Translations under genes and position numbers: made by a program | Assembly (NCBI RefSeq): GCF_020177265.1 | Contig: NZ_JAIVMC010000007.1 | Span: forward strand, 186,001-250,000 | Reading direction: 5' to 3' | DNA length: 64,000 nucleotides | Origin: Pseudooceanicola marinus | GTDB lineage: Bacteria; Pseudomonadota; Alphaproteobacteria; Rhodobacterales; Rhodobacteraceae | The notes under the pieces: model-generated | Database searches by the model: none | The model's input: only the letters and a program-made list of their open reading frames with translations | Told to the model about the DNA's origin: nothing | In this document: piece by piece, positions 5,515-64,000 of the stretch | Layout of the letters: every line of letters begins with the position of its first letter | How positions within the stretch are numbered: position 1 is the first letter of the stretch

Positions 5515-6379
5515 TGTAGAGGCCGGCGGCGATGGTCACCACGATCCCGGCCAGGGCCAGGCCGTCAGGGAAATCGCGGAAGATCAGCCAGCCGATCAGC
5601 GTCGCCACGGGGATCTCCAGGTATTGCATCGGGGCCAGGGTGGCAGAGGGCGCATAGCGCAGGCTGGCCGCCATCAGCAGGTGCCCGAAGGATCCGATCA
5701 GCCCGATGGCCAGGATCAGCAGCCAGCTTCCGGGATCGGGGGGCAGCATGGTCAGCGGGTCGAGCCCAGCCCAGTGGCCCAGCCCGATCACGGGCACCAG
5801 GATCGCCACGGCCATCCCCCCGCTCAGCCCCTGCATGCCGATCGGCGCGATGTCCTTGGCCACCTGCCGTGTCGACAGCATGAAAAGCGAGAAGAGCACC
5901 GCGACCCCGAGCGGCAGAAGGGCCGGCCAGCCGACCTCGGCGAAGGAGGGCTGGACAACCATCAGGGTGCCGATGAAGCCCACGGCGCAGGCGGCCAGGC
6001 GGCGCGGGCCGACCTCCTCGTCCAGCACGAACCAGCCCAGCAGGAGCATCAGGAAGGGCATGACGAAGGCGATGGCCACCGCGTCCGCCAGTGGCAGGTA
6101 CAGAAGGGCGGTGAACATGCAGAAGATGCCGCCCATGTGGAACAGCGTCCGGTAGAGCGTGAACCGCAGGACCCGCGGGCTGAGCCCGCGCAACTCGCCT
6201 CGCCACAGGGCGACGGGGCCGAGGAAGATCATCTGCGCCAGGAAGCGGAACAGCAGCAGCTGCATCACGGGCAGCACGCCGCCGAGGAGCTTGGCGATGG
6301 AATCGCCCAGGGGCGCCAGCACGCAGAACCCCAGCATGAGGGAAATGCCCAGAAGCGGGCGGTCGAGATCCTTGGTCAT
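5432..6379 (-). CDS. EamA/DMT-family membrane transporter
   Basis: A 315-residue protein with about ten hydrophobic segments in two repeated halves, as in the drug/metabolite transporter superfamily. Typical landmarks are an acidic/charged loop after the fourth or fifth helix (FVLDEEVGPRR) and the second-half equivalent (LIFRDFPDGLALAG). Substrate is not predictable; relatives move amino acids, nucleotides or other small metabolites. The C-terminus ends in a Pro-rich tail (PHPPAPPPAV) encoded in the stretch shared with the 3' end of the thiamin pyrophosphokinase gene. The ATG at 6379 is the only start compatible with a full first helix. Confidence 0.85.
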   Translation of the reverse strand: MTKDLDRPLLGISLMLGFCVLAPLGDSIAKLLGGVLPVMQLLLFRFLAQMIFLGPVALWRGELRGLSPRVLRFTLYRTLFHMGGIFCMFTALLYLPLADAVAIAFVMPFLMLLLGWFVLDEEVGPRRLAACAVGFIGTLMVVQPSFAEVGWPALLPLGVAVLFSLFMLSTRQVAKDIAPIGMQGLSGGMAVAILVPVIGLGHWAGLDPLTMLPPDPGSWLLILAIGLIGSFGHLLMAASLRYAPSATLAPMQYLEIPVATLIGWLIFRDFPDGLALAGIVVTIAAGLYIILRERAIARASRQAPLPHPPAPPPAV

Positions 6380-6451
6380 GGGGCGACGCTAGGGGGCGTC
6401 CCAGGGGATGTCCATTGTCCAGGGCGTTTGCGTGGGTGGGGCGGCGTCGGT

Positions 6452-6505
6452 ATCGGCCTGGCGGCCGATCGCCTCCGGCGGGAGTATTTGGACCGAGGTG
6501 AAAAG
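6452..6505 (+). repeat. interspersed structured element, copy 2
   Basis: Hairpin ATCGGCC-TGGC-GGCCGAT (6452-6469) followed directly by CGCCTCCGGCGGGAGTATTT (6470-6489) and a tail GACCGAGGTGAAAAG. The box is nearly identical to that at 42661-42680. Confidence 0.6.
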
Positions 6506-6612
6506 GGGGGGAGGCACCCGGGCTGGTCAGCGGTCCGAGGGCGGAGGCCTGCCACGCCCGGGGAGGAAAAGGAGGCCGCCTTTCCGGGCGCCGTCCTGCC
6601 TGGGTCGTACGG

Positions 6613-6632
6613 CTGGGAATATCCGGGGGTGT
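6613..6632 (-). repeat. inverted partner of repeat copy 2
   Basis: Read on the minus strand this is ACACCCCCGGATATTCCCAG, a variant of the CCCCCGG..TATT box, facing the forward copy about 110 bp away. Short and degenerate, so the assignment is tentative. Confidence 0.35.
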
Positions 6633-6679
6633 CTGTCGCAGGAGAACGGGGCAAGGGCCCCATCTGCCTGTCTCTCGCC

Positions 6680-8050
6680 TCAGCAGTTGGGTACGTTCAC
6701 GGCCAGGCCCCCCAGCGAGGTTTCCTTGTAATGTTCGTGCATGTCGCGGCCCGTCTGGCGCATGGTCTCGATGCAGGCGTCCAGCGGCACGAAGTGGCGC
6801 CCGTCGCCGCGCAGGGCCAGCGAGGCGGCGGAGACCGCCTTGATGGCGCCCAGCCCGTTGCGTTCGATGCAGGGCACCTGGACGAGGCCCGCGACGGGAT
6901 CGCAGGTCATGCCGAGGTGGTGCTCCAGGGCGATCTCGGCGGCGTTCTCGATCTGCTCCGGCGTGCCGCCCATGACGGCGCAGAGGCCGGCGGCGGCCAT
7001 GGCGGCGGCGCTGCCCACCTCGGCCTGACAGCCCGCCTCGGCGCCCGAGATCGAGGCGTTGTATTTCACCAGCCCGCCAATGGCGGCGGCGGTCAGCATG
7101 AACTCGGTGATCTTCGACGGCGTCGCCGTGGGCACATGGGTCAGCCAGTATTTCATCACCGCCGGCATCACGCCCGCCGCGCCGTTGGTGGGCGCCGTCA
7201 CCACCTGGCCCCCGGCGGCGTTTTCCTCGTTCACCGCCATGGCGTAGCAGCTGATCCAGTCGTTGACGACATGGGGCGGGGCCAGGTTGCGGCCTGCTTC
7301 CTCCTTAAGGGCCTCGTGGATGGCCCGGGCGCGGCGGCGCACGGCGAGGCCACCGGGCAGCAGGCCGTCGCTGTCGAGCCCACGGTCGATACAATCCGAC
7401 ATCACCTTCCATATCTGGCCGACCCCGGTGCTGACGTCCGGACGGCCGCGTGCGGCCTCGTTGGCGGCCTTCATCTGGGCGATGGTCAGGCCGGAGGCGC
7501 GGGCCATCTCCAGCATCTCGGCGGCGGAGTGGAAGGGGTAGGGGATGGGGGTGCCGGGGGCCTTGTCCTCGCCCGCCTCCAGCTCGGCCTCGGTCAGGAC
7601 GAAGCCGCCGCCGACAGAATAATAGACCTCCGACAGGATCACGTCGCCCTGGGCGTCCAGCGCCATCAGCTTCATCCCGTTGGGGTGGCCCGGCAGCGCC
7701 TCGTCGTAGTCGAAGAGCATGTCGCGGGCCGGGTCGAAGGCCATCGGCGGCAGGCCCTCGGGCGTGACCTCGCCGGTCTCGGCGATCCGGGCCAGCGACG
7801 CCTCGGCCTTCTCGTTGTCGTAGGTCACCGGCTCGAACCCCGCCAGGCCGAGGATCGTGGCCCGGTCCGTCGCATGCCCCTTGCCGGTGAAGGCCAGCGA
7901 GCCGTGCAGCGAGGCGCGCAGGCCCTTCGCCTCGAAGGGGGCTTCGCGCAGCCGGTCGAGGAAACGCGCGGCGGCCACCATCGGCCCCATGGTATGGGAC
8001 GAGGACGGGCCGATGCCGATCTTGAAGATCTCGAAGACGGAAAGGAACAT
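6680..8050 (-). CDS. sdaA: L-serine ammonia-lyase (serine dehydratase), single-chain iron-sulfur type
   Basis: A 456-residue cytosolic enzyme that deaminates L-serine to pyruvate and ammonia. The N-terminus has the family signature [11 protein letters not shown] (residues 13-23). The alpha domain carries the cysteines expected to hold the [4Fe-4S] cluster, in [12 protein letters not shown] and in [12 protein letters not shown]. Length matches the E. coli SdaA type (about 455). The frame continues upstream with an unrelated Pro-rich leader, so the ATG at 8050 is used, directly before the family N-terminus [10 protein letters not shown]. Divergent from xseA with 167 bp between. Confidence 0.95.
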
Positions 8051-56020: not shown

Positions 56021-56785
56021 CTAGCGCAGGGCCTTGGCGATCTCGCCTGCGTGGCGGTGCAGGATCTCGGTCAGGCGGGGGTAGTCCGCTGCGGGGATCT
56101 CGCTCATCGGTTCGGAGAAGCCCAGGGCGGCCTCGGCCGCGCCCATGGCGCCTACGGGCACGGCGATTCCAACCGCGCCGGCCTCGAACTCGCCCTCGAC
56201 CACCGCCGCGCCGCGCGTGCGGATCTCGGCCACCGCCTCGGCGATGCGATCACGGTCGGTCAGGGTCTCGGAGGTGAAACGCTCCAGCTCGGCGGTGGCG
56301 ATCATCTCCCGTGCCCAGGCGTCCTCGCCCCAGGCCAGCAGCATCCGCCCGATGGCCGTCGGCAGAAGGGGCAGGCGACTGCCCACGGTGAAACCGAAGG
56401 TGAAGCGCGCGTTCTGCTGTGCCGACTGCGCCACGTAGACCGCCGAGGCCCCGTCCCGCATCGCCAGGCTGACGCTGTAGCCCAGTTCGCGGGCACAGAG
56501 CTCCATCAGCGGCTGCACCTGCCGGCCGAACTGGTTGCCGCGCAGGAAGCCCGATCCCAGCACCAGCACCCGCGGCGTCAGGGAATAGCGGTTCTCCTCC
56601 TTGCGCACGTAGCCCAGATGGACCAACGTCAGGACCAGACGGCGCACCGCCGCCCGTTCGATCCCGGTGAGCCGGGCAATATCGGCCAGGGACAGCTGGC
56701 TGTGTGCCTCGTCGAAGGCCCGCAGCACGGTCATGCCCTTCATGAAGGTTAGCGAGATGTCCTTGGTTGGAATATCCGACTGCAC
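56021..56785 (-). CDS. IclR-family transcriptional regulator
   Basis: A 254-residue regulator. Winged helix SLTFMKGMTVLRAFDEAHSQ, LSLADIARLTGIERAAVRRLVLTL, then the IclR effector domain (DGASAVYVAQSAQ, LPLLPTAIGRMLLA, FEAGAVGIAVPVGA). Start is a GTG at 56785. Divergent from the TRAP transporter operon with 224 bp between, so it most likely controls that operon. Confidence 0.93.
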   Translation of the reverse strand: MQSDIPTKDISLTFMKGMTVLRAFDEAHSQLSLADIARLTGIERAAVRRLVLTLVHLGYVRKEENRYSLTPRVLVLGSGFLRGNQFGRQVQPLMELCARELGYSVSLAMRDGASAVYVAQSAQQNARFTFGFTVGSRLPLLPTAIGRMLLAWGEDAWAREMIATAELERFTSETLTDRDRIAEAVAEIRTRGAAVVEGEFEAGAVGIAVPVGAMGAAEAALGFSEPMSEIPAADYPRLTEILHRHAGEIAKALR

Positions 56786-57009: not shown

Positions 57010-58020
57010 ATGATGAAGACACTTGCCGTTTCCGGCACCCTTGCCCTCGCCATGACCGCCGGCGCCCAGGCGGAAACCCTGCGCTACGCGCATTTCATGT
57101 CCGCCAACAGCTGGCAGAACCAGGTCATCTTCGAAGACTGGGCCGCCGCCGTCGAAGAGGCCGCCGGTGAAGACCTGGACGTCGAGGTCTACCCGGCCCA
57201 GACGCTGGGCAAGGCGCCCGCGGGCTACGACAACGCCATGATGGGCATCGCCGACATCGCCTGGACCGTGCAGGGCTACACCGCCGGCCGCTTCCCGCTG
57301 AGCCAGATCATGGAACTGCCGGGCCTGTTCGACACCGGCGCCGTCGGCTCCTGCGCCTTCCAGAAGCTCTACGACAGTGGCGCGCTGGATGCGGAATACG
57401 ACGAGACCCACGTCCTCTTCCTGCACACCCATGATCCGGGGCACCTGCACACCGCCGACACGCCGGTCGAGAACCTGGACGACATGCGCGGCCTGAAGCT
57501 GCGCCGCCCGACCCAGGTTGTCGGCACCCTGCTGGAAAACCTCGGCGCGGAGCCCGTGGGCATGCCCGCCCCCAACACCTACGAGGCGCTGCAGCGCGGC
57601 GCCATCGACGGCTACATGCTGCCCTGGGAAAGCGTTGAAAGCTTCCGCCTGGATGAGCTGTCGGGCTACCACACCGAGTTCGGCTTCTACGCCCTGGCCT
57701 TCGTCGCCACGATGAACAAGGCCAAGTACGAGGGCCTGTCGCCCGAGGCCAAGGCCGCCATCGACGCCAACTCCGGCATGGAGTGGGCCGTGACCGCGGG
57801 CCGTGGCTACGACGAGGCCGGCGCCAAGGTCCTGGAAGGTCTGCGCGAAACCTCGACCGTGATCGAACTGTCCGAGGAAGAGCGCGCCAAGTGGGCCGAG
57901 GCCGCCCAGTCCGCCTCCGACGCTTATATCGCCGAGCTGGACGGCATGGGCCTGCCGGGCACCGAGACCTATGCCGCCGTGCAGGGCTACGTCAGCGAGT
58001 GCGAAGCCGAGCTGAACTGA
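57010..58020 (+). CDS. TRAP transporter substrate-binding protein (DctP type)
   Basis: A 336-residue periplasmic protein. Signal peptide (LAVSGTLALAMTAGAQA-E). Family features include FMSANSWQNQVIFEDWAAAVEEA, DIAWTVQGYTAGRFP, GLKLRRPTQVVGTLLENLG (the conserved Arg that binds the ligand carboxylate) and a C-terminal helical end. Binds an organic acid. Two ATGs stand in tandem (57010, 57013). First gene of the TRAP operon. Confidence 0.93.
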   Translation: MMKTLAVSGTLALAMTAGAQAETLRYAHFMSANSWQNQVIFEDWAAAVEEAAGEDLDVEVYPAQTLGKAPAGYDNAMMGIADIAWTVQGYTAGRFPLSQIMELPGLFDTGAVGSCAFQKLYDSGALDAEYDETHVLFLHTHDPGHLHTADTPVENLDDMRGLKLRRPTQVVGTLLENLGAEPVGMPAPNTYEALQRGAIDGYMLPWESVESFRLDELSGYHTEFGFYALAFVATMNKAKYEGLSPEAKAAIDANSGMEWAVTAGRGYDEAGAKVLEGLRETSTVIELSEEERAKWAEAAQSASDAYIAELDGMGLPGTETYAAVQGYVSECEAELN

Positions 58021-58043
58021 GCCGCCCCGGCGTGACTATTCGG

Positions 58044-58065
58044 CGGGCCGCCCCGGGGCGGCCCG
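58044..58065 (+). other. GC-rich hairpin after the TRAP binding-protein gene
   Basis: A perfect 22-bp palindrome, CGGGCCGCCCC joined to GGGGCGGCCCG, without a T run. Same position as the hairpin after tctC. Confidence 0.7.
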
Positions 58066-58099
58066 TCTGCGCTCAGACCGAAAATCGACGGAACAGCCA

Positions 58100-58615
58100 A
58101 TGGTAATAGCGACGGTCCGGCGGGTTGCCCGCGTGATGGAGGGAGGCAGCCTGATCTTGGGTGCGATCTGCCTTTTCTACATGGTCTGCGTGGTGGGGGT
58201 GAACGTGTTGGCACGGATCATCTTCGACGCCACCGACACGGCGGTGAACCTGATGATCCCCGGCGCCATCGAACAGGTGTCCTACCTGCTGGGCATCGTG
58301 GCTCTGGCCGGTCTGACCGCCTCGATGGCCCATGGCATGATCGCCGTCGACTTCCTCGTCGCCCGCCTGCCCAGCCTCGGCCAGGCGCTGGTGGCGCGGT
58401 TCTGGTTCATCGGCATGGTGGCCCTCGCGCTGGTGCTGACCTGGCTCTTCTACGAGGACATGCTGGCGACCTATGCCCGCGGCGAGGACACCCAGGACCT
58501 GCGCCTGCCGATGTTCCTGATCTACGGCCTCTACGCGGCGCAAAGCCTGGCCCTGGCCATCGTCGCCCTGCGCGAGGTGCTGACCAGCCATGGCGACCAC
58601 GGGGAGATGACCTGA
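58100..58615 (+). CDS. TRAP transporter small permease (DctQ type)
   Basis: A 171-residue membrane protein with four helices (GAICLFYMVCVVGVNVLARII, SYLLGIVALAGLTASMAHGM, FWFIGMVALALVLTWLFYED and a last one) and the DctQ pattern MIPGAIEQVSYLLGIV. Bridges binding protein and large permease. The ATG at 58100 has a weak ribosome site. Its stop overlaps the dctM start (TGATG). Confidence 0.88.
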   Translation: MVIATVRRVARVMEGGSLILGAICLFYMVCVVGVNVLARIIFDATDTAVNLMIPGAIEQVSYLLGIVALAGLTASMAHGMIAVDFLVARLPSLGQALVARFWFIGMVALALVLTWLFYEDMLATYARGEDTQDLRLPMFLIYGLYAAQSLALAIVALREVLTSHGDHGEMT

Positions 58616-59934
58616 TGACACCCCTGATGATCGGCTACGCCTGCATCGGCGCCATGTTCGTGATCCTGATCCTCGGCGCGCCCATCGGGCTGGCGATGAT
58701 CACCGTGGGCTTCGTCGGCTTTTCCGCCATCATCGGCATGACGCCGGCGCTGGCGGTGCTGAAGACCGCGACCTTCGAGACTATCACCAACTATTCCTTC
58801 ACCCTGATCCCGCTGTTCCTGCTGATGGGCAACCTGATCTCGCGCTCGGGCGTGGCCGCCGACCTGTTCCGCGGCGCGCTGCTGCTGACGCGCGGCTGGT
58901 CCGGCGGGCTGGCGGCGGCGGGCATGACCGCCAGCGCCGTCTTTTCCACCGTGTCGGGCTCGTCCCTGGCCACCGCCTCGACCATGACCCGCGTCGCCTA
59001 CCCGGAGATGAAGGCGCACGGCTACGACCCGCGCCTGGCCACTGGGTCGCTGGCCGCAGGGGGGACGCTGGGCATCCTGATCCCGCCCTCGATCGCGCTG
59101 ATGCTCTACGCGCTGATCACCGAGCAATCGGTGGGCACGATGTTCCTGGCGGGCATCCTGCCGGGCATCCTGGCCTTCGTCCTCTATATTGTCACCATCC
59201 TGATCATGTCGCGGATCTGGTCCCCGGACCCGGAAATTGCCGCGCAGGCCATCGCGTCGGAGGCCGAGGCCGCGGGCCCCGCCCGCCGCTTCGAGACGCT
59301 GCGCCTCTTCGCGCCGGCCATCGTCCTCTTCGGGTTGGTGATGGGCGGGCTTTACGGCAACTTCTTCACCCCCACCGAGGCCGGCGGCGTCGGCGCCGCG
59401 CTGTCGCTGATCTTCGCCCTGTGGCGCCGGGTGCCGCGCGCCGAACTGGTGGCGGCCTTCGTCGAGACCATCGTTACCTGCGGCTCGATCTTCCTGATCC
59501 TGATCGGCGCCGAGGTCTTCGGCTTCGTCCTGTCCACCTCGCAGCTGTCGAACGAACTGGTGCGTTTCCTCGATGGCAGTGGCTTCGGCCCCTGGCAGGT
59601 GCTGCTCGTGATCCTGATCTTCTACGTGATCCTGGGCTGCTTCATGGAAAGCCTGGCGATGATCCTGCTGACCGTGCCGATCTTCTTCCCCGTCATCCTG
59701 GCCAACGGGTTCGACCCGATCTGGTTCGGCGTCATCGCCGTGGTGACGGTGGAGCTGGGGATGATCACGCCACCCGTGGGCATGAACCTCTTCATGGTCA
59801 AGAGCGCCTCGCGCGACACCAAACTGACCACGATCATGACCGGGGTCGTCCCCTTCGTGGTGACCGACGTGATCCGGCTGGGCATCCTCCTGGCCTTCCC
59901 GGCGATCTCTCTGCTGCTGACCGGGCGGCTGTGA
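58615..59934 (+). CDS. TRAP transporter large permease (DctM type)
   Basis: A 439-residue membrane protein with about twelve helices. Typical stretches are GAPIGLAMITVGFVGF, PLFLLMGNLISRSGVA, SGSSLATASTMTRVAYPEM, GTLGILIPPSIALMLYA and ITPPVGMNLFMVKS. Carries the transport path driven by Na+ or H+ gradient. Coupled to dctQ by one-base overlap. Confidence 0.94.
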   Translation: MTPLMIGYACIGAMFVILILGAPIGLAMITVGFVGFSAIIGMTPALAVLKTATFETITNYSFTLIPLFLLMGNLISRSGVAADLFRGALLLTRGWSGGLAAAGMTASAVFSTVSGSSLATASTMTRVAYPEMKAHGYDPRLATGSLAAGGTLGILIPPSIALMLYALITEQSVGTMFLAGILPGILAFVLYIVTILIMSRIWSPDPEIAAQAIASEAEAAGPARRFETLRLFAPAIVLFGLVMGGLYGNFFTPTEAGGVGAALSLIFALWRRVPRAELVAAFVETIVTCGSIFLILIGAEVFGFVLSTSQLSNELVRFLDGSGFGPWQVLLVILIFYVILGCFMESLAMILLTVPIFFPVILANGFDPIWFGVIAVVTVELGMITPPVGMNLFMVKSASRDTKLTTIMTGVVPFVVTDVIRLGILLAFPAISLLLTGRL

Positions 59935-60031: not shown

Positions 60032-61495
60032 ATGACATCTTCATCTCATCATGACCGGATCGCGGCGGGCCGCCTGGCCCGCGAGGGCCTGCTGGACGCG
60101 GAGGCCGTGACGGCGGCGGCCGAGTTGCTGGCCCGTGTCGAGGGCAGCGAGCTGGAGACGGTGCGCGTCGTCTTCGCTGATCAGCACGGGCTGCTGCGCG
60201 GCAAGACGGTGACGGCGGCCAGCCTCGGCTCTATCTTCCGCGCCGGGCTGAACCTGCCGGGGACCCTGCTGCTGAAGGATACCTCGAACCGTACCGTCTT
60301 CCCGGTCTGGGAAGGGGCGGCCGAGGGGGTGATGAAGACCATGGCAGGGGCGGGCGACATGCTTCTGGTGCCCGATCCGGCCACCTTCCGCATCCTGCCC
60401 TGGGCGCCGCATTCCGCCTGGCTGTTCTGCGATCCCTACACCCGCACCGGCGAGGCGCTGCCCTTCGCGCCGCGTCCCGTGCTGCGCCGTGCCGTGGGGG
60501 CGCTGGCCGAACGCGGCCTGTCGCTGACCGTGGGGCTGGAGGTGGAGTTTCACGTCTACACCCGCGAGGCCGCGAACCTCGGCCATCATCAGGCCGGCAT
60601 GCCTGGCCAGCCGCCGGAGACGGCGCTGCTGGATCAGGGGTATCAGTTCCTGGCGGATGCCAACTACGACCGGCTGGAGCCGATCATGGACCTGCTGCGC
60701 CGCCACGCCCAGGCCCTGGGCCTGCCCGTCCGCTCGACCGAGGTGGAGATGGGGCCGAGCCAGTTCGAGTTCACCTTCGATCCGGCCAGCGCGCTGGAGC
60801 ATGCGGACAACATGATCATGTTCCGCACCATGGTGAAGGAGGTCTGCGCCCGCGAAGGGCTGCACGCCACCTTCATGTGCCGCCCGAAGAAGGAGAACGG
60901 CGCCTCCAGCGGCTGGCACCTGCATCAGTCGCTGGTGGACGGCGAGGGGCGCAACGTGCTGATCCCCGAGACGGAGGGCGCCCTGACGCCCGAGGCCAGC
61001 GGCTGGATCGCGGGGCTGCTGACCCATGCCGAGGAAAGCTGCCTGCTGACCACGCCCACGGTGAACGGCTACAAGCGGTATCAGCCCTATCAGCTGGCCC
61101 CCGACCGGATCGAATGGGGCTACGACAACCGCGGCGCCATGGTGCGCGCGCTGATGGCGCCGGGCGACGGGGCCAGCCGGGTGGAAAACCGCGTGGCGGA
61201 ACCGGCGGCCAACCCTTACTTCTACTTCGCCTCGCAGATCCTGTCGGGCCTGTCGGGTCTCGACCAGGGTCTCACCGCGCCCGAGCCGGTCGAAAGCCCC
61301 TATGACAACGACGCCACCGCCCTGCCGCCTAGCCTGATCGCCGCGATCGAGGCCTTCGAGGCGGGCGACCTGTACCGCCGTGCCCTGGGGCCGGAGTTCG
61401 TGGAATATATGTCGGTGCTGAAACGGGCCGAGTGGAAACGCTACCTCTCGGTCGTGACCGAATGGGAGCACACCGAGTATTTCGGGATCTTCTGA
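60032..61495 (+). CDS. glutamine-synthetase family ligase
   Basis: A 487-residue enzyme of the GlnA family, related to gamma-glutamyl amine ligases (GlnT/PuuA/aniline-type) rather than ordinary GlnA. N-terminal beta-Grasp part has VRVVFADQHGLLRGKTVT; the catalytic part has GLEVEFHVY, EVEMGPSQFEFTF, NGASSGWHLHQSL and SRVENRVAEPAANPYFYFAS. Probably joins glutamate to an amine using ATP; amine unknown. Between the TRAP genes and the isomerase, 97 bp after dctM. The isomerase starts three bases after its stop. Confidence 0.85.
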   Translation: MTSSSHHDRIAAGRLAREGLLDAEAVTAAAELLARVEGSELETVRVVFADQHGLLRGKTVTAASLGSIFRAGLNLPGTLLLKDTSNRTVFPVWEGAAEGVMKTMAGAGDMLLVPDPATFRILPWAPHSAWLFCDPYTRTGEALPFAPRPVLRRAVGALAERGLSLTVGLEVEFHVYTREAANLGHHQAGMPGQPPETALLDQGYQFLADANYDRLEPIMDLLRRHAQALGLPVRSTEVEMGPSQFEFTFDPASALEHADNMIMFRTMVKEVCAREGLHATFMCRPKKENGASSGWHLHQSLVDGEGRNVLIPETEGALTPEASGWIAGLLTHAEESCLLTTPTVNGYKRYQPYQLAPDRIEWGYDNRGAMVRALMAPGDGASRVENRVAEPAANPYFYFASQILSGLSGLDQGLTAPEPVESPYDNDATALPPSLIAAIEAFEAGDLYRRALGPEFVEYMSVLKRAEWKRYLSVVTEWEHTEYFGIF

Positions 61496-61497
61496 CC

Positions 61498-61836
61498 ATG
61501 CCCCACGTCGTCATCGAGTATTTCACCGAAGACCCGCTGGACCGCACCGCCGTCCTGCAAACCGCGCTGGACACGGCGGCGGGCAGCGGCGTGATGAACC
61601 GCGCCGACATCAAGGTGCGGCTGGTCCCGGCGGAGGCGATCCTGATGGGGGACGGGCGGTCGTCCTTCCTCCATGTCACGATCTCCATGCTGACGGGCCG
61701 CACCGATGAGGCGAAGCTGGCGGTGGCCCAGGCGATGACCGCGGCGCTGCGGGATCTCTGCCCGCAGATCGGCGCGATCAGCACCGACATCCGCGACATG
61801 AACCCAGCCTGCTACAAGAAATCCCTCGCGGAGTGA
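61498..61836 (+). CDS. 5-carboxymethyl-2-hydroxymuconate isomerase-like tautomerase
   Basis: A 112-residue protein of the tautomerase superfamily, CHMI type: MPHVVIEYFTEDPLD with the catalytic N-terminal Pro, NRADIKVRLVPAEA, FLHVTISMLTGRTDEAKLAV. CHMI moves a double bond in homoprotocatechuate degradation; here it more likely handles another dienol acid. Coupled to the ligase gene by a three-base gap. A strong terminator follows. Confidence 0.85.
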   Translation: MPHVVIEYFTEDPLDRTAVLQTALDTAAGSGVMNRADIKVRLVPAEAILMGDGRSSFLHVTISMLTGRTDEAKLAVAQAMTAALRDLCPQIGAISTDIRDMNPACYKKSLAE

Positions 61837-61920: not shown

Positions 61921-62397
61921 TCAGGCGCTGAAGGGGCGGAACCCGGCGGCGTCGCCCATCAGGCGTGGCAGGTCTGCCAGCACCTCCGCTGCGGCGAGGG
62001 GGCGGGCAATGGGACGCGACGACAGGCCGAAGCCGGTGAAATAGGCGGGCTCGCCCAGGCGGATGTCGGCGGGCAGGGCGGTGTCTGCGCGCGCATCCAA
62101 CCAACGCCACTCCCCCGTGCCCAGCAGGGAGACATCTGCGGTCTCGCCCTCGGGGCAGGTCACCGTCAGGACCATGGTGTCGATCAGCCCGGCGTAGCCG
62201 TCGCGCAGGTGCAGCGGCACCGGCGCATCCGGGGCCAGGCCGTCGATTTCCATCACGGGGGCGTGGCACAGCAGCATCCAGGCCCAGCTGAGGTCATGGC
62301 GCGCCATCATCTGGCGCACCGACTCCTTCAGGGTGAAATAGCCGTCCAGGATGTCATGGAACGGCTGCGCATGATCCCCGTTTTCGGGCAGGATCAT
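61921..62397 (-). CDS. unknown protein coupled to the oxygenase gene
   Basis: A 158-residue protein. MILPENGDHAQPFHDILDGY, MMARHDLSWAWMLLCHAPVM, and TGEWRWLDARADTALPADIR are its distinctive stretches. Helical N-terminal half, then mixed. I do not recognise a family; it is not like the NTF2-fold beta subunits of ring-hydroxylating oxygenases. ATG overlaps the oxygenase stop (ATGA at 62394-62397), so a fixed ratio of the two is likely. Could be a small subunit or assembly factor of the oxygenase. Confidence 0.65.
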   Translation of the reverse strand: MILPENGDHAQPFHDILDGYFTLKESVRQMMARHDLSWAWMLLCHAPVMEIDGLAPDAPVPLHLRDGYAGLIDTMVLTVTCPEGETADVSLLGTGEWRWLDARADTALPADIRLGEPAYFTGFGLSSRPIARPLAAAEVLADLPRLMGDAAGFRPFSA

Positions 62398-63626
62398 ACC
62401 GTCGCGTCCCAGGGCGCGGCCTGGCGGCGCTCCATGTCGGTGGCCATGCTGGCGCCCAGCCAGTCGTCGCTGTCGGCGATGGCATCGTTGGACAGCGGGC
62501 CCATGATCTCGGGCGTGGTCTGCATGTCCTGCATCGGCAGCCGGTCCAGCTTGCCCGTCTGCACGGCCTTGATCGCCTTGCGCAACAGCAGGCGGTAACG
62601 GATGATCGCCGCATCGCCCCGGCCCAGGTGTTCGCGGGTGCGGTCCTGGATCGCGCCCATGCTTTCCACCGCCCACTGGTCATGCACGTTGATGTCCATG
62701 CCCATGCCCGTGTAGGTCAGCGATTTCTGCTCTTCCGGATCGTAGTGGTAGTTGTTGGAGGCGTTCTTCAGCGGCGCATAGTCGGGCAGGCTGTGTTCCT
62801 TCAGGCGCTGCTCGCGCATCAGCTCCTTGTTCACCGGTTTGTCGAAGCTGGTGAACATCGTGTACCAGTAGCAGTTCTCGTCATCGACGGGCACGTGCCA
62901 CTGGGTGATGATCATCTCGCGCGACATCGGGATGCAGATGGCCGAGGGGAAGATCTGGTTGGTCACCCGCACATGGGTCAGGCCGCCCTTCATGTGCCGC
63001 AGCGAGGTGATCTTCAGTCCGAAGGGCGTCTCGTCCACCTCGATGTCCGGACGGGGATATTCACGCAGCACCTGGGTGATCGGCATGTCGGTGTTGGCGG
63101 CCTTGTCGCGGAACTGCTTGCCGTAGCCGTCGCTGGGGTCCTCGTCCTGCAGGAAGCGGTGCAGGAAGGAGGCATGGCTGGGGTCGATACCGATTTCCAG
63201 CGCCTGCAGCCAGTTGCATTCCCACAGGCCCTTGAAGGCGAAGACGTGGCTTTCGGGCGCGCGGAAACAGTCGAAGTTGGGGAAGGCCGGCGGTTCACCC
63301 TCGCCCATGAAGGCGAAGCAGATGCCGTTCTTCTCGACAACCGGGTAAACGGGGCCACCCTCGACCAGGCGGATGTCCTCGCGCGCGGGGTGATGGGTGG
63401 GGGCCTCGTCGGCGCTGGCCTCGCGGGTGGCCAGGATCAGGTCACCGGCCTCGTCCCTCATCATCACCAGGCGCTCGCCCAGCAGGTTCACGGGCAGCAT
63501 GGGATCGTTGGCGCCGGCCAGCTCATCCGTCAGGGCGGCGGGTTGCCAGTACTGGCGATGCACGGCGCCGGCGGGGGTGTTCGGGCCGATGCGGGTGATC
63601 TGGTCGTTCAGCTTCTGGGTAATCAT
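62394..63626 (-). CDS. Rieske-oxygenase catalytic subunit lacking the Rieske cluster residues
   Basis: A 410-residue protein related to phthalate-dioxygenase-type oxygenase alpha subunits. N-terminal MITQKLNDQITRIGPNTPAG and QYWQPAAL are family-typical. The mononuclear iron motif is intact: N138-W-x-Q141 and Asp148-x2-His151-x4-His156 (GIDPSHASFLH), with later HDQWAVESMGAIQDRTREHL. But where C-x-H...C-x2-H should be, between MRDEAGDL (56-63) and YPVVEKNGICFAFMGEGEPP, only a short Cys-free stretch occurs (residues 66-92). So it cannot bind a Rieske cluster alone. AAAGGAG stands before the ATG. Confidence 0.87.
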   Translation of the reverse strand: MITQKLNDQITRIGPNTPAGAVHRQYWQPAALTDELAGANDPMLPVNLLGERLVMMRDEAGDLILATREASADEAPTHHPAREDIRLVEGGPVYPVVEKNGICFAFMGEGEPPAFPNFDCFRAPESHVFAFKGLWECNWLQALEIGIDPSHASFLHRFLQDEDPSDGYGKQFRDKAANTDMPITQVLREYPRPDIEVDETPFGLKITSLRHMKGGLTHVRVTNQIFPSAICIPMSREMIITQWHVPVDDENCYWYTMFTSFDKPVNKELMREQRLKEHSLPDYAPLKNASNNYHYDPEEQKSLTYTGMGMDINVHDQWAVESMGAIQDRTREHLGRGDAAIIRYRLLLRKAIKAVQTGKLDRLPMQDMQTTPEIMGPLSNDAIADSDDWLGASMATDMERRQAAPWDATV

Positions 63627-63692
63627 GCGGGGGCTCCTTTGCGGGAACGCTTGGGGAAGATGTGGGGCGCGCGGCGCGACAGGGAAGGGGGC

Positions 63693-64000
63693 TCAGGCGT
63701 CGAGGACGGGGGGCGTGCCCTCGCCGGACCAGGCGAAGATCTCTCCGTTCCGTTCGACCACGGTGAAGCTGGGCAGCTTGATCGCCTTGTACATGGTGGA
63801 ATCCACCGGTTCTGCGGGCTGTTCGGTGCACTGACCTGAGCGGTCGAAATGCCAACCGTGGAAGGGACAGCGGATACCGTTGTTTTCGTGCCGGCCAAAG
63901 CAGAGGTCAGCGCCACGGTGCGGGCAGTAGCGGCCGATCAGGCCCAGCTCGCCCTCCTCGTCGCGGAACAGCACCAGTTTCTGGCCGAAGGCCGTCACCG
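63693..64000 (-). CDS. Rieske [2Fe-2S] domain protein (N-terminus outside window)
   Basis: The visible 102 codons give an intact Rieske domain: RYCPHRGADLCFGRHENNGI, then RCPFHGWHF, i.e. C-x-H-x16-C-x2-H, preceded by LVLFRDEEGELGLIG and followed by FTVVERNGEIFAWSGEGTPP. It stops at PPVLDA, where a normal oxygenase alpha subunit would go on into the catalytic domain. The true start lies beyond the right edge (the first visible codon is an internal GTG). It precedes the cluster-less catalytic gene by 66 bp on the same strand. Confidence 0.85.
   Translation of the reverse strand, partial: VTAFGQKLVLFRDEEGELGLIGRYCPHRGADLCFGRHENNGIRCPFHGWHFDRSGQCTEQPAEPVDSTMYKAIKLPSFTVVERNGEIFAWSGEGTPPVLDA

Follow-up and report, generated by a model that had tools for sequence, protein, structure and literature searches.

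A Rieske-less oxygenase and an adjoining Rieske-only protein

The window analyzed here is a 64,000-nucleotide stretch of the Pseudooceanicola marinus genome (G000:C7:186001-250000), and toward its right-hand edge lie the three minus-strand genes that are the subject of this report: an alpha-type oxygenase of the Rieske family that lacks the Rieske ligands (OXY), a Rieske-only protein encoded upstream of it (RSK), and a third gene, P3, downstream. The portion of the RSK gene beyond the window was taken from the sequence of the same genome. Coordinates are collected in Table 1.

Within its 410-aa open reading frame (ORF), OXY carries the complete mononuclear-iron motif (GID148PSH151ASFLH156), whereas the Rieske C-x-H and C-x2-H motifs are absent from the whole chain and are instead found in the adjoining gene. 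Pfam identifies a LigXa_C catalytic domain (PF19301, E = 9.7e-26, above the cut-off) and a marginal VanA_C match, while no Pfam Rieske model matches OXY at E ≤ 0.1. When aligned to intact relatives, OXY retains the N-terminal arm, the base strands of the Rieske fold, and the catalytic domain; approximately 29 residues are absent over the cluster-binding loops, and the residues flanking this gap have diverged. The initial annotation, made from the letters of the window, had described this combination of a full iron motif and missing Rieske ligands, and the reading frame, Pfam, and the alignment all bear it out. Across the 18 split OXY sequences described below, D148, H151, H156, and D316 are invariant, whereas D328 varies among the aligned rows shown (N in L019), and we presume D316 to be the candidate third iron ligand. 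In the predicted structure of OXY, residues 11-110 are modeled with confidence (ten-residue block means of 76-94) and form the six strands of a Rieske base without the cluster loops. The nearest experimental structure to the model is 9ioy (Z = 21.2, root-mean-square deviation (rmsd) of 4.4, 296 residues aligned).

Counted from its first ATG, the full RSK frame gives 150 aa; with MSQATQ, the more likely start, it gives 132 aa. Its stop codon ends 66 bases ahead of the OXY start codon at this locus. Read over this whole frame, the gene is Rieske-only, as had been proposed from its visible part: the motif CPH...CPFH lies in a single Pfam Rieske domain, with no catalytic domain or any other domain, and in the alignment the entire Rieske fold is kept. 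RSK shares its small, Rieske-only size with the Rieske ferredoxins of three-component oxygenases, and we considered whether it is a captured Rieske ferredoxin. Its best PDB matches, however, are oxygenase alpha chains (E-values of 2e-31 and down), while the ferredoxins of methanesulfonate monooxygenase and naphthalene dioxygenase match at 4.6e-8 and 5.3e-5, respectively. This ranking disfavors a ferredoxin origin, as does the nesting of RSK among alpha-chain Rieske domains in a tree that contained no ferredoxin rows.

Co-occurrence of OXY, RSK, and P3

In 84,980 species genomes, a pattern scan detected 384 relatives of OXY; the 80 loci retained comprise 18 in which the oxygenase lacks the Rieske ligands (split loci) and 62 in which it has them (intact loci). 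A gene for RSK lies directly upstream of OXY at every split locus (18/18, with one interrupted, L010), and a P3 homolog lies within 1.5 kb downstream, also in 18/18; neither RSK nor P3 was seen at any intact locus (0/62). At the level of whole genomes, 147 genomes of relatives were compared, and the same 6 carry the Rieske-less OXY, a close RSK (at least 60% identity to that of P. marinus), and P3. P3 was found nowhere else in the 147, and a sample of 385 genomes from the class contained it in P. marinus only. Distant Rieske matches in other frames are present in 74/147 genomes at E ≤ 1e-10. The initial annotation had tied the pairing to conserved co-occurrence in related genomes; that co-occurrence is now evident, and the linkage of OXY, RSK, and P3 is more than chance would produce. 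The conserved unit is also larger than the pair described there, with P3 as its third member. By our own count, the trio is found in 22 distinct genomes, mostly of marine bacteria and including a P. algae plasmid, G077, and a Palleronia plasmid.

With start codons picked by script, the RSK stop and OXY start overlap by 4 nt in 10/18 split loci; in the remaining eight, 12-66 nt lie between them. The synthetase gene described below sits between OXY and P3 in three split loci (L013, L014, and L016). On the plasmid of Palleronia sp. LCG004 (L165 9536-9970), the RSK gene is open yet missing from the gene table of the record.

Two broken genes, the interrupted RSK frame of L010 and the intact-type gene of L163, could suggest that the split arrangement is itself a pseudogene or an assembly artefact. 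Given that the same anatomy recurs in all the genomes counted above and is under purifying selection, we consider this explanation practically untenable. L163 (G171), in which a stretch is missing and the Rieske ligand region is altered, looked split to the motif filter; its fragments, however, belong to a broken oxygenase gene of the intact type, and it was rejected as a split locus.

Sequence conservation and selection

Regional identities were obtained from hand-picked sequences, namely 8 of the 18 split sequences, 7 of the 18 RSK sequences, and 11 intact sequences (12 were aligned, with L081 outside the means). The cluster region of RSK shows a mean identity of 84% to intact relatives, compared with 90% among the intact sequences themselves, and the values for its base are 58% and 41%, compared with 80% and 67%. 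The OXY catalytic domain averages 72% identity to intact relatives (75% among intact sequences). L023, which holds undetermined residues, was excluded from A1 and A2. Over 11 pairs, the ratio of nonsynonymous to synonymous substitution rates (dN/dS) is 0.04-0.18 for OXY, 0.08-0.42 for RSK, and 0.17-0.45 for P3, with one OXY pair and one RSK pair saturated; all three genes are under purifying selection. In the pairs defined for both proteins, OXY has the lower dN/dS in 8/9, the exception being the comparison of P. marinus with L006.

These values bear on a different reading, in which OXY is inactive and has a structural or regulatory role while RSK works for an unrelated oxygenase. Such a reading would account for the loss of the cluster ligands, and the P. 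marinus genome does contain two more Rieske matches, one in a 362-aa and one in a 482-aa frame. It is nonetheless highly improbable: the catalytic motif residues are invariant, the catalytic domain is conserved nearly as it is in intact enzymes, OXY is the more constrained protein in all but one of the pairs above, and RSK accompanies OXY at every split locus. The initial annotation had also allowed that another, intact oxygenase might do the job, and we find no further OXY match in the P. marinus genome at E ≤ 0.001.

Evolutionary origin of the split

To place the split proteins, trees of the catalytic and Rieske domains were compared. The catalytic-domain tree was inferred by a quick search over 104 rows (82 intact and 22 split, with G003 present twice and string-identical ORFs merged), in which the trimmed intact rows start approximately 28 residues before the split rows and the columns concerned were left unmasked. 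In this tree, the split OXY sequences form one clade with a Shimodaira-Hasegawa-like approximate likelihood ratio test (SH-aLRT) support of 98, and this clade lies within the intact family. The Rieske-domain tree has 109 rows and only 114 columns, with many forks unresolved, and omits six frames with incomplete motifs (one is among the two L010 frames, and the others are fragments of five Rieske genes). RSK is likewise one clade in this tree (support of 97), and its neighbors are the intact sequences L024, L028, L030, L029, L054, and L061 (fork support of 92). The same six are among the seven nearest intact rows in the OXY tree (fork support of 92), and this overlap of neighbors indicates that OXY and RSK trace back to roughly the same intact ancestor.

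The two proteins could in principle have arisen by fission of a single gene. In the alignment, however, the base strands and a YPVVEKNG-like stretch are present in both OXY and RSK, and because the two retain overlapping parts, duplication with reciprocal loss is preferred over a simple cut. Judged from both trees and the alignment, a single event of this kind in an intact ancestor is a well-supported origin for OXY and RSK, and it is the route that the initial annotation had put forward.

P3, the third conserved gene

At E ≤ 0.1, P3 has no match in Pfam or NCBIfam, and searches with P3 and its homologs give no glutathione S-transferase (GST) match and no convincing PDB sequence match. Its fold was predicted from the longer homolog of L012, with a predicted local distance difference test (pLDDT) score of 74.7. 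The top seven structural matches of this model have Z-scores of 6.8-7.9, a range in which, by the tool's own remark (Z under 8), a match may mean merely a common arrangement; their rmsd values are 3.9-4.7 over 109-121 aligned residues, and the Z-score drops to 4.9 in the next row. The first eight rows of a Foldseek search consist of the same seven entries. One of them, 2dt4, is titled PPC, and we take the other six to be PPC/DUF296-like as well. The prediction is thus a lead toward a PPC/DUF296-like fold for P3. An oxygenase beta subunit or a GST was also considered for P3 and appears less likely, as there is no Pfam, NCBIfam, or PDB sequence match to suggest either and the structural list is PPC-like. 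Prokaryotic PPC proteins are described as trimers (PMC4209074), and a PPC-like P3 would therefore suit a threefold oxygenase. P3 is probably a structural partner subunit of an OXY-RSK assembly.

Neighboring genes, electron supply, and substrate

The synthetase, tautomerase, and tripartite ATP-independent periplasmic (TRAP) transporter genes of the window point toward the OXY operon from the opposite strand, and farther out lies a gene for an IclR-family protein that is likely the local regulator of the region (Table 1). Beyond the RSK gene, also on the opposite strand, the P. marinus genome encodes an FprA-like NADPH-ferredoxin reductase (FNR) and a flavodoxin.

Table 1. Genes of the split-oxygenase region, in window coordinates
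Feature	Position	Strand	Remarks
Rieske-only protein (RSK), window part	63693..64000	-	Gene runs on past the window edge
RSK gene end beyond the window	64091 (132 aa, from MSQATQ) or 64145 (150 aa)	-	G000:C7:249693-250145
Rieske-less oxygenase (OXY), alpha-type, 410 aa	62394..63626	-	Arm, Rieske-fold base, and LigXa_C kept; cluster-binding subdomain gone
Third gene, P3, 158 aa	61921..62397	-	Start codon overlaps the OXY stop by 4 nt
5-carboxymethyl-2-hydroxymuconate isomerase-like tautomerase, associated gene	61498..61836	+	
Glutamine synthetase-like protein, associated gene	60032..61495	+	Nearest solved structure NpaA1 (glutamyl-organic-amine synthetase)
TRAP transporter genes, associated uptake system	57010..59934	+	
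TRAP large permease	58615-59934	+	Homology to annotated P. algae gene
TRAP small permease	58100-58615	+	Homology to annotated P. algae gene
TRAP DctP	57010-58020	+	Family searches
IclR-family regulator	56021..56785	-	Best NCBIfam match PcaR/PcaU/PobR family, under its cut-off

The reductase-flavodoxin pair stands beside 8/21 split loci, compared with 0/64 intact loci. In L003, for example, the flavodoxin (7580-8023) and the FprA-like reductase (6338-7534) are divergent from the split operon. Homologs of the plant-type ferredoxin and FAD reductase that flank the Polaromonas oxygenase occur beside the intact oxygenases of L028, L065, and L167, with the ferredoxin alone beside L058, and none were observed beside split loci. 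The flavodoxin and its reductase possibly represent a switch of electron donor.

The synthetase is found near 60/62 intact and 12/18 split loci. Its best PDB match is NpaA1 (8wwu, E = 5e-113, followed by 5.8e-54 for the next), and among solved structures it is closer to this characterized glutamyl-organic-amine synthetase (GoaS) than to type I glutamine synthetases (GSI). NpaA1 glutamylates 1-naphthylamine and anilines ahead of a Rieske dioxygenase, and GoaS enzymes are described as having a 15th motif and having lost activity on ammonia (PMC11335346). As NpaA1 is by far the nearest solved relative of the synthetase, a gamma-glutamylated amine suggests itself as the substrate of OXY, and by analogy with aniline and 1-naphthylamine degradation, it is probably such a compound. 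A second candidate pathway is purine catabolism: the flanks of the intact roseobacter loci L039, L047, L050, L055, and L059 contain what we take to resemble purine/allantoin degradation genes, and the P. algae split locus has annotated ureidoglycolate lyase and hydantoinase/oxoprolinase genes nearby. This pathway is less supported than the synthetase link.

A proposed split oxygenase acting in trans

In Rieske oxygenases, a bridging Asp links the Rieske cluster to the mononuclear iron, and the cluster-to-iron distance in ordinary members is roughly 12 Å. The cluster of one subunit feeds the iron of the next (PMC12445004), and the bridging Asp is mentioned in PMC5033481. Against this background, we think it probable, with fairly good confidence, that the product of the operon is a Rieske non-heme iron oxygenase in split form, with RSK serving OXY in trans, the two physically forming, we infer, one working enzyme. 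An intact alpha subunit of the LigXa/isophthalate-dioxygenase type would have duplicated, after which one copy kept the Rieske domain alone and became RSK, while the other kept the arm, the Rieske base, and the catalytic domain, lost the cluster-binding subdomain, and became OXY. RSK would then provide its [2Fe-2S] cluster to OXY, with the conserved cluster tip docking on the catalytic face that is used by the Rieske domain of the neighboring subunit in ordinary trimers, and electrons would pass from RSK to the mononuclear iron of OXY by way of D148, the bridging Asp. P3 would probably be a structural component of the assembly. In some lineages, including that of P. marinus, the electrons would probably come from NADPH via the adjacent FprA-like reductase and flavodoxin, and the product of the linked synthetase, a gamma-glutamylated amine, would be the probable substrate. 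Complex formation, the electron path, the role of P3, and the substrate are put forward here as a proposal.

Several observations weigh against this proposal. OXY still has its own Rieske-fold base while RSK has a full base, which means that RSK cannot occupy the exact place of the ancestral domain and must approach differently. The model of OXY is weak in its catalytic half (mean pLDDT of 59). The structural resemblance of P3 to PPC proteins is modest (Z of 6.8-7.9) and has no support from sequence, Pfam included. The dN of RSK exceeds that of OXY in every pair. The reductase-flavodoxin pair is present at just 8/21 split loci and the synthetase near only 12/18, so that a glutamylation step is not evident at every split locus. 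The RSK gene of Jiella pelagia (L010 7485-8001) is broken into two frames, reflecting either a pseudogene or a sequencing error, while OXY and P3 are open there. Finally, the readable sequence at intact loci is limited, with at least 600 bases upstream in 58/62 and at least 2,500 downstream in 49/62, so that the absence of RSK and P3 there is well, but not fully, covered.

The retained base of OXY also fits an arrangement in which RSK acts as a Rieske ferredoxin that can dissociate, carrying electrons back and forth between a reductase or flavodoxin and an OXY trimer and delivering them straight to the mononuclear iron, as RSK would approach such a trimer from outside. The eight loci in which the RSK and OXY genes are 12-66 nt apart rather than overlapping agree with this as well. 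We regard a shuttle as unlikely, though worth serious consideration, in view of the likely descent of RSK from an alpha-chain Rieske domain, the conservation of its cluster face as in a docked domain, and the translational overlap with OXY at 10/18 loci.

Comparison with known systems

When compared to structurally characterized enzymes, OXY has the layout of the isophthalate and phthalate dioxygenases of Comamonas testosteroni KF1 (9ina, 9ioy, 7fjl, 7v25, and 7v28) minus the lost subdomain. These are among its nearest solved relatives by both sequence and model, but unlike OXY, they hold both centers in one intact alpha chain. The direct relatives of OXY are intact LigXa_C oxygenases, such as that of the Polaromonas JS666 plasmid (L166), which are approximately 43-67% identical and mostly accompanied by the same type of synthetase. 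Unlike the split proteins, they have a whole Rieske domain, no P3 was seen with them, and some are accompanied by a plant-type ferredoxin and an FAD reductase.

The initial annotation knew of no named example of a split pairing; one does exist, the caffeine N7-demethylase NdmCDE, reported as the first case of a Rieske domain split off from its oxygenase and fused to a reductase (PMC4408171, PMC10380055). It includes a GST-like partner, is reported to form a 3:3:3 complex (PMC10380055), and, as a split enzyme reported to work, lends weight to the proposal made here. Among the papers listed by the literature searches, which covered few subscription papers, Ndm is the sole precedent for a split or stand-alone Rieske pair. 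The system described here resembles NdmCDE of Pseudomonas putida CBB5 in having a cluster-less oxygenase, a Rieske domain supplied by another polypeptide that is encoded beside it, and a third protein, which in Ndm is a needed structural subunit. NdmCDE comes from a different oxygenase family. The present system also differs in that P3 is predicted to be PPC-like rather than GST-like, and the substrate of Ndm is a methylxanthine.

Two rhizobial loci are Ndm-like. On plasmid p1 of Sinorhizobium sp. B11 (L170 4504-6646), the Rieske protein (213 aa) is free and is accompanied by a Rieske-less oxygenase of 282 aa and a GST-like protein. On pSymA of S. meliloti (L168 2674-6276), two annotated oxygenase alpha genes (288 and 301 aa, VanA_C, no Rieske match) precede the gene for a 588-aa protein that combines Rieske, reductase, and ferredoxin domains. 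Unlike NdmD and the L168 protein, RSK is not fused to a reductase (132-150 aa, Rieske only), and unlike P3, the third gene of the B11 locus matches GST. By its sequence, the B11 locus represents another type of split in which the Rieske protein is free. The rhizobial Ndm-like oxygenases are of the VanA_C type, whereas OXY is of the LigXa_C type with a marginal VanA_C match. The nearest PDB entries to the L170 oxygenase are GxtA/SxtT and NdmA, and it shows no significant BLASTP similarity to OXY (E = 0.76). A weak profile match to OXY covers residues 17-157 only (probability of 42), and from this match the L170 oxygenase, too, seems to have retained a Rieske-fold base.

The dissimilarity of these relatives, through which NdmC was compared rather than by NdmC itself, together with the placement of OXY within the intact LigXa_C family, points to a LigXa_C-type split that is probably a second origin, independent of Ndm. 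This suggests that the splitting of Rieske oxygenases has evolved more than once. More tentatively, and with rather less than even confidence, we envisage an independently evolved hetero-oligomer in which OXY and a free RSK are assembled on a PPC-fold threefold scaffold and fed by flavodoxin, the cluster subdomain having become a detachable electron module. On this view, the Ndm and LigXa types would have converged on losing the same subdomain while retaining its base. Electron transfer from cluster to iron across subunits is hard to dissect because both centers normally reside in one chain; in a natural OXY/RSK pair, each center can be made, mutated, and titrated separately. The pair allows a test of whether a Rieske cluster needs a fixed place within the trimer, and the split opens a route to mixing and matching electron modules. 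It also gives P3, conserved and without an assigned family, a testable family.

The combination of a glutamylamide synthetase and a Rieske oxygenase is shared with AtdA1-A5 (aniline) and NpaA1-A5 (1-naphthylamine). A split is not mentioned for these systems in the available part of PMC11335346, and they differ in that their Rieske dioxygenase has two components and is joined by a reductase and a GAT-like protein (PMC11335346).

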